A stretch of 29,742 bases of DNA from a virus, in the IMG/VR virus record IMGVR_UViG_3300032046_000151, positions 1 to 29,742 of that record; one strand, 5' to 3'. Made by a program: the position numbers and the translations under genes. Of the stretch, positions 247 to 2,521 are shown in pieces; within the stretch, counting starts at the first letter, position 1, and each line of letters begins with the position of its first letter. The notes below the pieces were generated by a model. It searched no databases, was not told the DNA's origin, and saw only the letters and a program-made list of their open reading frames with translations.

Positions 247-275
247 TTGACAAACTTGACAAAATAGTAAATACT
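247..275 (+). promoter_or_regulatory. Candidate sigma70-type promoter
   Basis: A perfect TTGACA at 247-252 is followed after 17 bases by AATACT at 270-275, which matches 4 of 6 bases of the -10 consensus. A second TTGACA at 256-261 makes a tandem TTGACAAACTTGACA. The start point would be near 282, only a few bases before the ATG at 285, so a transcript from here would be nearly leaderless for that ATG. It would drive the HNH gene and the terminase genes. The call rests on consensus only. Confidence 0.45.
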
Positions 276-284
276 TTAAATAGA

Positions 285-323
285 ATGAATATAAGACAAC
301 AGAAAGTAATTAAATGCCAATAG
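285..323 (+). pseudogene. Orphaned 5' stub of terminase small subunit gene
   Basis: The ATG at 285 opens a 12-codon frame starting MNIRQQ and ending at TAG 321-323. Bases 287-302 recur at 801-816, where the same NIRQQ is read in the terS frame and continues LYKKYRLEG into an ordinary small-terminase N-terminus. Joining the two at the repeat gives one uninterrupted gene beginning MNIRQQLYKKYRLEG. I infer that this stub is the original start of terS, cut off by the HNH insertion. No Shine-Dalgarno precedes the ATG. Confidence 0.6.
287..302 (+). repeat. Direct repeat copy 1 flanking HNH insertion
   Basis: GAATATAAGACAACAG is identical to 801-816. The spacing between copies is 514 bp. The match stops exactly at both ends (T versus C before, A versus T after). 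It is read in the same phase relative to the terS frame in both copies. Confidence 0.9.
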
Positions 324-808
324 GTATCTATAAACATAAATCACATCAAGGATTTCAAAAAAATCATCCGAAATATTTATTCAATCATACTCAAGAAACA
401 AGATATAAATTGCGTTTAGCTTTGTGTGGTAATAAAAATGGAATTAAAGGGCATCTTTGTTCAAAAGAAACTCGGGAAAAATTAAGAAAATACAATCTTG
501 GTAAATGGATAGGCAGTAAGAGTCCTAATTGGCGAGGTGGTATAACTCCAATAGAAAAGAAAATTAGGAATTCAATAGAATGTCGACTTTGGCGAGAAGC
601 AATATTTTCAAGAGATAATTGGACTTGTCAAAGATGTCAGAACCGGGGAATATATTTAGAGGCACATCATATTAAAAGTTTTTCTCAATATCCTGAATTA
701 AGATTTGCTCTTGATAACGGTATTACATTGTGTGAATCCTGTCATAAATTAACAGATAATTTTACAGGCAGAAATAAAAGGAAAGAAAGGATAATCCCAC
801 GAATATAA
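314..808 (+). CDS. HNH homing endonuclease with NUMOD3-like region
   Basis: This 164-aa protein should nick or cut DNA at a specific site and promote spread of its own gene. The HNH nuclease domain covers about residues 98-150: Cys105 and Cys108 pair with Cys140 and Cys143 to hold zinc, AHHI at 117-120 carries the general-base histidines, and DNGITLC at 134-140 supplies the HNH asparagine. Residues 50-80 (SKETREKLRKYNLGK, then SPNWRGG) resemble the NUMOD3 DNA-binding motifs of homing endonucleases. The start is ATG 314 with only a weak purine run upstream. Its stop codon, TAA 806-808, lies inside the second 16-bp repeat, so the target sequence supplied the end of the gene. A helper role in packaging, known for some terminase-linked HNH proteins, is less likely given the insertion pattern. 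Confidence 0.88.
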   Translation: MPIGIYKHKSHQGFQKNHPKYLFNHTQETRYKLRLALCGNKNGIKGHLCSKETREKLRKYNLGKWIGSKSPNWRGGITPIEKKIRNSIECRLWREAIFSRDNWTCQRCQNRGIYLEAHHIKSFSQYPELRFALDNGITLCESCHKLTDNFTGRNKRKERIIPRI

Positions 809-816
809 GACAACAG
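801..816 (+). repeat. Direct repeat copy 2, terS junction
   Basis: This is identical to 287-302. It holds the HNH stop codon (806-808) and, in another frame, terS codons for NIRQQ. It marks the right border of the insertion. Confidence 0.9.
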
Positions 817-843
817 TTATATAAAAAATATCGGTTAGAAGGA

Positions 844-1269
844 TTGTCTGCATATCAATCCGCAATAAAAGCAGGATATTCTAAAGCTACTGCTTGGAAT
901 GCTCATAAGAACATTGAAAATCGTTGTAACTTTGAACAATTATTTGCAGAGGCTGGATTTGATGATAAGGCTATTGTTACTCTTATTTCAGCAGGGATGT
1001 TAGCGAAGAAACCTATTGCTTGTAATGTAATGATTAGAGATGATAACGGTAAATTAATAGTTGTTAAAAACGAGAATGACTGGATTGAATATGAGGATTG
1101 GAACGCAAGAGATAAATTTATTAAAAATGCTCTTGAATTAATGAAGAAGATAGATCATCAACCCTTAATTGACCAATCACTTCACAGCCATTTTACCTAT
1201 GTCTGGAAAGACACAAATCATCAAGATAGACTATTCACCCCAGAATTATCAGAGGGAGATTCACGATAA
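844..1269 (+). CDS. terS: Terminase small subunit with displaced start
   Basis: This is the DNA-recognition subunit of the packaging motor. The frame carries a typical small-terminase N-terminal helix-turn-helix (LEGLSAYQSAIKAGYSKATA). A middle segment follows (AGFDDKAIVTLISAGMLAKK) and then the usual DWNARDKFIKNALELMKK ending. No ATG or GTG start exists between the in-frame stop at 775 and the TTG at 844, and the purine run AGAAGGA directly abuts that TTG with no spacing. The terS-like reading actually begins at 802, inside the right copy of the 16-bp repeat, and its ATG lies at 285 beyond the HNH gene. Either a shortened protein is made from TTG 844, or an unusual start is used (an AUA at 805 overlaps the HNH stop), or the gene is inactive. 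It overlaps terL by about 70 bp. Confidence 0.8.
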   Translation: MSAYQSAIKAGYSKATAWNAHKNIENRCNFEQLFAEAGFDDKAIVTLISAGMLAKKPIACNVMIRDDNGKLIVVKNENDWIEYEDWNARDKFIKNALELMKKIDHQPLIDQSLHSHFTYVWKDTNHQDRLFTPELSEGDSR

Positions 1270-2521
1270 TCCTTCTCGTTATCGGGTCGTAGTAATCGGC
1301 AGGCGCGGGGGCAAGACCGAATTTCTTTTACAGGAAGAGATAAGGCTTGCTGTTAAAAATCCTGGCCTGCATTGGATAATCGCGCCTTCTTATCGCCAAG
1401 TCAAGTCAATTTGTTGGCGAAGGCTTAAAACCATTTTAGCAGTTGATACAGACTGGAAATATAATGAACAAGAATTATCAGCCGAGCATCCCAAAATAGG
1501 AACGAGAATGGAACTTAAAGGCGCGGATAATGAGGATTCATTAAAAGGGATAGGATTAAAAAGTGCCGGCCTTGATGAGTGCGCCCTTATGAAATTGAAT
1601 GTCTGGCCTGAAATCATACGGCCTATGCTTGCTGATTCCAGGGGCCCGGCAACATTTATCTCTACCCCAAGAGCCAAGAATTGGTTTTATGATTTATTTC
1701 TGAAAGGCTTTAATAAAGAAAAAGATTGGCAAAGTTGGCAGTATCCGACTTCGATAAATCAATATATCTTGAAAGAAGAAATTGCGGAAATGAAGAAAGA
1801 CATGTCAGAACGCTTATTCAGGCAAGAGGTCTTAGCTGAATTTTTAGAAGATGAGGCGGGGGTATTCCAGGGTGTTCGGTCTTGCATTGTGGGGAGTATA
1901 CAGAACCCTGTTATTGGTAGATTCTATGTTATGGGTGTTGATTTAGGCAAGGCTGAAGATTTTACAGTGTTAACAGTCATTGATGCGCTTACGAGAGAAG
2001 TCGTAGCTTTTGAGAGATTTCAGGATATTCGTTGGACAGAGCAGAAACTTCGGATTCAGCATTTAGCTCATAAATATAACAATGCTTTAACTGTAATAGA
2101 TGCAACCGGAGTGGGCGATCCGATTGCCGAGGATTTAGAGAACGCCAATATCAGCCTTTATTATGAAGGAGACAAGCCGGGTTATAGATTCACCAATGAG
2201 TCAAAAATGAGACTGATTGAACAGTTGATATTAGCGATTGAGCAAAGGCTTATTACTTTTCCCAACATCGAAATTTTAATTGAGGAATTAAAACAATTCA
2301 GCTACAGCATTTCTCCAGGGGGCAGGATAATTTATGGCGCTCCTGAAGGCAAGCACGATGATTGTGTGATTGCACTTGCTTTGGCGAATTGGGGGATAAG
2401 AACATATTTACACTCGGCGCAAGTATTACAAAGCCAAGAACGGGAAGTCAGGGATAAAGAAGGACAGGGAGAATTAATCGGAATTGACCAGGGCAAGGTT
2501 GACCGCCCCTGGCATCAATAG
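1199..2521 (+). CDS. terL: Terminase large subunit (ATPase and nuclease)
   Basis: This is the motor that pumps DNA into the capsid and cuts the concatemer. From ATG 1199 it is 440 aa. The ATPase half has a Walker A motif GRRGGKT at residues 34-40, Walker B acidic residues in AGLDECALM (Asp126, Glu127), and a coupling motif ATFISTP about 20 residues later. The nuclease half has an RNase H-like fold signature: MGVDLGKAEDFT near 240, TVIDATGVGDP near 300, and GKHDDCVIALALA near 390, supplying the metal-binding acidic residues. A TTG at 1169 would extend the protein by ten residues. No Shine-Dalgarno supports either start, so translation is probably coupled to terS. Length and motif order are normal for the family. 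Confidence 0.93.
   Translation: MSGKTQIIKIDYSPQNYQREIHDNPSRYRVVVIGRRGGKTEFLLQEEIRLAVKNPGLHWIIAPSYRQVKSICWRRLKTILAVDTDWKYNEQELSAEHPKIGTRMELKGADNEDSLKGIGLKSAGLDECALMKLNVWPEIIRPMLADSRGPATFISTPRAKNWFYDLFLKGFNKEKDWQSWQYPTSINQYILKEEIAEMKKDMSERLFRQEVLAEFLEDEAGVFQGVRSCIVGSIQNPVIGRFYVMGVDLGKAEDFTVLTVIDALTREVVAFERFQDIRWTEQKLRIQHLAHKYNNALTVIDATGVGDPIAEDLENANISLYYEGDKPGYRFTNESKMRLIEQLILAIEQRLITFPNIEILIEELKQFSYSISPGGRIIYGAPEGKHDDCVIALALANWGIRTYLHSAQVLQSQEREVRDKEGQGELIGIDQGKVDRPWHQ

Follow-up and report, generated by a model that had tools for sequence, protein, structure and literature searches.

The window analysed here is the whole of an IMG/VR virus record of 29.7 kb, which begins shortly ahead of the terminase genes. 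The features at its left end are the following:

247..275, + strand: promoter-like site (TTGACA, 17 nt, AATACT) just 5' of the displaced terS start; consensus scan, 10/12 matches, suggestive only as the scan yielded no more sites in total than in shuffles
285..302, + strand: left repeat copy, the displaced original terS start ATGAATATAAGACAACAG, reading MNIRQQ; repeat and junction alignment
285..323, + strand: 12-codon ORF MNIRQQKVIKCQ (then a stop) built from the displaced start, with possible translational coupling to the HNH gene; sequence
303..816, + strand: inserted 514-bp unit, its exact ends ambiguous within the repeat; repeat spacing of 514 and junction alignment
314..808, + strand: HNH endonuclease gene, 164 aa; Pfam HNH 1e-8, PHROG HNH endonuclease 4e-15
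383..487, + strand: NUMOD3-like DNA-binding motif, residues 24-58; 6e-4, 20.2 bits against a cut-off of 20.4
626..748, + strand: HNH catalytic domain, residues 105-145; Pfam
786..791, + strand: Shine-Dalgarno-like AAAGGA of the rebuilt terS, within the HNH ORF; sequence, with similar leaders in relatives L105 and L085
799..816, + strand: right repeat copy, the rebuilt terS start with ACG for ATG, in terS phase and overlapping the HNH stop codon; repeat and junction alignment
799..1269, + strand: terS, small terminase subunit, in phase from ACG 799; Pfam, PHROGs, PDB sequences
1169..2521, + strand: terL, large terminase subunit, start codon uncertain; Terminase_6N 1e-9, Terminase_6C 1e-8, phrog_2 3e-43

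An initial reading made from the sequence only had proposed that the HNH gene is flanked by a 16-bp direct repeat whose two copies both read NIRQQ. Both statements proved correct. The exact repeat, GAATATAAGACAACAG, is found at 287-302 and 801-816, either side of the HNH ORF and with a spacing of 514. If one mismatch is allowed, the repeat extends to 18 nt (ATGAATATAAGACAACAG at 285-302 and ACGAATATAAGACAACAG at 799-816, 17/18 identical). A first-order Markov model predicts ~1e-5 such 16-bp matches between the flanks of the HNH start and stop and ~0.7 across the whole window; given the latter figure, the evidence resides in the position and phase of the copies and not in their length alone. 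A cross-locus DNA null for the flanking repeat gave p ~0.003.

The left copy opens the 12-codon ORF, whose stop lies just within the HNH ORF, while the right copy is in terS phase and holds the HNH stop codon (806-808). The HNH gene therefore sits within terS codons 1-6: the old start (ATG + 15 nt) persists as a remnant on the left, and the 3' end of the HNH gene contains another in-phase terS start, preceded by a Shine-Dalgarno sequence of its own. The HNH ORF is the only one in the 514-bp unit. No transposase was seen in the unit and no terminal inverted repeats were detected at its edges. Comparison with Rfam introns yielded 0 matches to the insert, either at the gathering score or at E<=10, in agreement with the initial view that no intron ribozyme is evident; nor was any other RNA family matched.

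The HNH ORF matches both Pfam HNH (PF01844) and HNH_2 (8e-6), and its catalytic pattern (CxxC, HH, N and CH) is intact. NUMOD modules, which bind DNA, are typical of phage homing enzymes; the NUMOD3 match of this ORF falls marginally short of the cut-off. Matches of the terS phase to small terminase subunits are weak but consistent in the three collections listed above. A tblastn search for terS in cultured phages gave 0 matches, and a terS profile search of genome contigs gave no match; the terL search of genome contigs detected one distant locus.

The terS start in relatives

Relatives of terS were found by protein search, and those without an HNH gene at the site start terS with MN[I/T/V]RxQ. 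Examples are MNVRQQLYKKYR (L003), MNTRQQKYKKNR (L105), MNIRQQRYKKNR (L106) and MNIRMQKYKANR (L107). The sequence-only reading had predicted that HNH-free relatives would begin terS as the joined repeat copies do, and these starts correspond. No HNH motif was present in the DNA examined around terS of L003, L105, L107, L085, L088 and L090. Among the relatives scanned, an HNH motif near terS was detected only in the window, L002 and L106. In L106, a different HNH ORF is located around 1841, further upstream of an uninterrupted terS.

When the junctions were aligned, the left copy matched the HNH-free terS starts up to CAG and was followed by HNH sequence, and the right copy matched HNH-free terS from its start codon onward. 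This is the pattern required of an insertion that rebuilds the start of the gene. The relatives thus display the empty site expected if the HNH gene interrupts the start of terS, and joining the two copies recreates the ATG-initiated terS start of relatives, as had been suggested. The bases that precede the right copy (GAAAGGATAATCCC-ACG) resemble the terS leaders of L105 (GAAAAGGATATCCT-ATG) and L085 (GAAAAGGATTACAT-ATT); a terS leader thus seems to be part of the unit as well.

A second HNH gene occupies the equivalent terS position in L002. The ORF begins MNIRLEL and, at its 3' end, overlaps a terS that is intact and starts with ATG (MNIRRQL). The HNH proteins of the window and L002 share alignable sequence (42% over 92 aa) only in the region of the catalytic domain. 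Taken alone, the peptide match in L002 is weak (p ~0.02), and it is position that makes this locus notable. In the relatives L087 and L089, terL is 68-79% identical and the gene before it is a terS whose N-terminal part is unrelated and whose C-terminal tail is similar; gene-end exchange could have left such swapped N-termini as its trace.

Duplicated gene ends around other endonuclease genes

terS is not the only gene whose end occurs twice, once on each side of an adjacent HNH gene: this layout was detected at 14/227 phage HNH loci (score >=40), with ~0.4 expected. Among 150 distinct HNH ORFs from viral contigs, 12 had a flank score >=42, compared with 1.0 expected under a null in which flanks were taken from different loci. 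A position-aware test, in which the neighbouring gene's end was compared with the opposite flank, gave 9/150 HNH loci at >=40 versus 0.33 expected, and fresh HNH loci gave 5/77 versus 0.07 expected. Control ORFs reached >=40 in 10/601 and 8/521 cases. Part of these controls are unfiltered endonucleases or tandem paralogues, and this contamination explains why the difference between HNH loci and control ORFs at >=40 is only modest (Fisher 0.006 and 0.017). Endonucleases missed by the motif filter among the high-scoring controls include an HNH/NUMOD3 gene (L344) and two GIY-YIG genes with duplicated gene ends, one of 3' type (L120:7479-8231:-) and the other of 5' type (L388:4668-5396:+). A GIY-YIG set chosen by motif showed no excess (0/62), and no clear or convincing gene-end duplication was seen at 13 cultured-phage HNH loci. 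An exact-repeat scan of HNH relatives was mostly negative, a signal being obtained only with mismatches allowed and at the protein level; a first protein-level test, with 46 loci, was underpowered.

Clear examples involve an amidase gene (L060), the 3' end of a C-methyltransferase gene (L016), a PDDEXK nuclease gene (L033), an HK97-gp10-like gene (L117) and the 3' end of a DNA methylase gene (L234), as well as L304 and L128. The end carried is amino-terminal in the window and carboxy-terminal in L016, L234, L031, L264 and others. In all the 5'-type cases listed (8/8), the rebuilt start overlaps the 3' end of the endonuclease gene. In 3'-type cases the displaced tail comes after, often as an in-frame fusion to the HNH protein. 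In-frame fusion of the stranded start to the HNH ORF is found in L002, L060, L128 and L304. The HNH domain of L304 (L304:4159-4644:+) is fused in frame to a long N-terminus remnant of another gene, starting MAERRMFAERVVCSDKFLELS, and the rebuilt gene starts within the HNH 3' end.

Besides the window (17/18 nt), one other near-exact case was observed: in L264, where the HNH gene lies at 238-813 of the reverse strand, a 22-bp exact repeat (ACATTTCGCATGCAAAGCATAC) is present on both sides, at the 3' end of the upstream gene, and ISHAKHT followed by a stop is encoded twice. Elsewhere (for instance in L060, L016, L033, L128 and L304) the copies are of varying length and have diverged to ~50-80% nucleotide identity. 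Amino acid identity between diverged copies was above random expectation in 8/8 cases tested. Changes at third codon positions accounted for 20/27 in L060 and 15/20 in L016, both far outside expectation, and showed no excess in L304; as the diverged cases were picked by protein score, this comparison of the copies is biased.

How the HNH gene may have settled in terS

The layout, the phase, the empty sites and the recurrence described above are observations. We consider it probable that the 514-bp unit is an intronless, free-standing HNH homing element whose mode of movement is gene-end exchange. The HNH enzyme would cut or nick an HNH-free terS near codon 6 (CAG/TTA). Repair would then copy the donor HNH gene together with the donor terS 5' end, using terS homology on the right, and the left cut end would be joined to the element, leaving the old terS start stranded. 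The host gene would stay usable through the newly supplied start and not through RNA or protein splicing. Translation of the HNH gene may borrow the stranded start, by coupling to the mini-ORF in the window and by in-frame fusion in the four loci named above. Translation of terS would begin at ACG 799, directed by the nearby Shine-Dalgarno sequence and probably with the aid of ribosomes that end at the overlapping HNH stop.

The diverged gene-end copies found elsewhere, with mostly third-position changes in the best cases, point to two alleles brought together and not to one staggered cut that was filled in; they fit the joining of two functional gene ends from different phages. The near-identity of the copies in the window means that donor and recipient alleles are indistinguishable there. 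It also makes a recent event plausible, as initially proposed, and the window and L264 may represent either young insertions or insertions from near-identical donors. The rebuilt site, CAACAG/TTATAT, has a puzzling side: being intact, it might let the enzyme cut the very allele that encodes it, unless the recognised sequence extends 5' of the start codon or nicking is tolerated.

The start codon of the rebuilt terS counts against gene-end exchange as the best explanation, since ACG is found where the other 5'-type cases have ATG. The claim that terS has no ATG or GTG after the insertion is true in part: ATG codons exist further in; however, the terS phase contains no ATG, GTG or TTG between the in-frame stop at 775-777 and TTG 844. 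The position homologous to the terS start is ACG 799-801, 8 nt after the Shine-Dalgarno AAAGG. TTG 844 was considered as an alternative start and is disfavoured, as its use would lose the conserved NIRQQLYKKYR and its Shine-Dalgarno spacing is improper. RNA folding around the rebuilt start is ordinary (z -1.5). In L085 (1167-1169), as well as in L086 and L102, ATT occupies the terS start position, after AAAAGGATTACAT. No ATG, GTG or TTG is found in phase in L085 from the preceding stop to this ATT, and a short ORF, MKRITY, ends across it; the ATT is possibly a weak, coupled start.

Several other explanations must be weighed against gene-end exchange. ACG is a very poor start codon in bacteria and lies one transition away from ATG, the codon found in all other 5'-type cases listed. 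Hence, terS may simply be broken in this record, either because the rebuilt ATG mutated to ACG or because the C is a consensus error, and no normal TerS would be made from the genome or read set. We regard this as a serious possibility, albeit with a chance clearly below even. It is compatible with the homing layout, which may still be right. What speaks for a functional gene is that the terS frame is open and conserved, that the Shine-Dalgarno spacing suits ACG and that three contigs have ATT at the corresponding position, so this family may tolerate starts other than ATG. A rival to gene-end exchange is a transposon-like insertion, the sequence-only reading having likened the repeat to a transposon target-site duplication. 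A staggered cut of ~16-18 nt in terS would have been filled in to yield such a duplication, followed by a T to C change in the second start codon. Nearly identical copies that directly flank the unit are what such an event would leave. Neither a transposase nor terminal inverted repeats accompany them, however; in homologous layouts at other loci the copies have diverged, vary in length and lie at either the 5' or the 3' end of a gene, and a target duplication would not supply the leader, similar to those of L105 and L085, that precedes the second copy. We know of no 16-nt stagger for HNH enzymes. We thus find this part of the initial reading unsupported and judge it unlikely.

HNH packaging proteins of the HK97 gp74 type lie beside terminase genes, and the HNH gene of the window might be such a packaging cofactor, normally located beside terS, with the repeat a local duplication unrelated to homing. 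L002 and some cultured phages do have an HNH gene adjoining terS, and HNH genes beside terminase genes have been described with a packaging role (HrdP, PMC12724721). Yet most of the relatives scanned lack an HNH motif near terS, a NUMOD3-like motif is present, the HNH gene interrupts the terS start, and the same duplication layout surrounds HNH genes at amidase, methylase and tail genes. We judge a packaging role of this kind unlikely as well. Least probable of all, in our opinion, is that the unit is removed or skipped during expression, by RNA splicing or by ribosomal bypass from repeat 1 to repeat 2, to give MNIRQQLYKKYR from ATG 285. The joined repeats do recreate the terS start of relatives, and bypass adjacent to a homing gene has a precedent in T4 gene 60 (PMC5009743). 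Against such skipping, no intron family was matched, the insert is almost entirely ORF, the known T4 bypass spans 50 nt, a Shine-Dalgarno sequence precedes the second copy, and the rebuilt start is an ordinary ATG in the 5'-type relatives of the layout.

If gene-end exchange is extended beyond this locus, phages might harbour a common class of intronless homing elements, each an endonuclease gene with a replacement 5' or 3' end, that spread by gene-end swap. The window would be a very young one, and the substitution of ACG for ATG, the only difference within the 18 nt of imported start, might shield the rebuilt gene from the enzyme at the cost of a weak terS start. This is a speculation with low odds.

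Comparison with known mobile elements

It is poorly understood how free-standing endonuclease genes can establish themselves in a compact phage genome and leave its essential genes working. Gene-end exchange would be a concrete route, and one that leaves a recognisable scar. As the end of the remnant points to the likely cut site, it might provide a search rule for the cut sites of uncharacterised endonucleases. In addition, homing would drive mosaicism at the N- and C-termini encoded by phage genes. In the open-licence literature searched, no phage report of gene-end duplication around homing genes was found.

Like the Seg and Mob endonucleases of T4 and the I-HmuI-like HNHs of Skunavirus (PMC2988022, PMC12724721), the window carries a free-standing phage endonuclease gene that is present or absent between relatives. 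Free-standing endonuclease genes of T4 are intergenic and separated from their cut sites by hundreds to thousands of bp (PMC2988022); the same review covers split genes and intergenic insertion and makes no mention of gene-end duplication or a remnant. A comparative study of Xanthomonas phages found no conserved flanks around HNN-AP2 genes, and insertion was taken as sequence-independent (PMC2248197). Invasion of the coding sequence of an essential phage gene is shared with T4 mobA/gene 60 and Aeh1 mobE/nrdA (PMC2988022, PMC5009743); in those systems, however, the outcome is two polypeptides or a 50-nt ribosomal bypass, whereas in the window the gene end is supplied anew. The HNH gene of the window adjoins a terminase gene, as does HrdP of Skunavirus (PMC12724721). 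Unlike HNH packaging proteins, it is absent from most relatives, has a NUMOD3-like motif and interrupts a gene start.

A close likeness exists with the mobile ORFs that form gene hybrids in fungal mitochondria, described in atp6, atp9, cox2 and nad3 of Glomus and in atp6 of Allomyces macrogynus (PMC3630166). In both settings, an endonuclease ORF is bordered by an in-phase gene end on one side and by the displaced native end on the other. The paired gene ends of the fungal elements are diverged and come from different lineages, while those of the window are nearly identical. Fungal mobile ORFs involve C-terminal ends, mitochondria and LAGLIDADG or GIY-YIG enzymes, in contrast with the N-terminal end, the phage genome and the HNH enzyme of the window, where the rebuilt start also overlaps the 3' end of the endonuclease gene. 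Hence, the window would work like the gene-hybrid elements of Allomyces and Glomus; it is not filed as a member of that group, and the gene end that it appears to carry is the amino-terminal one.
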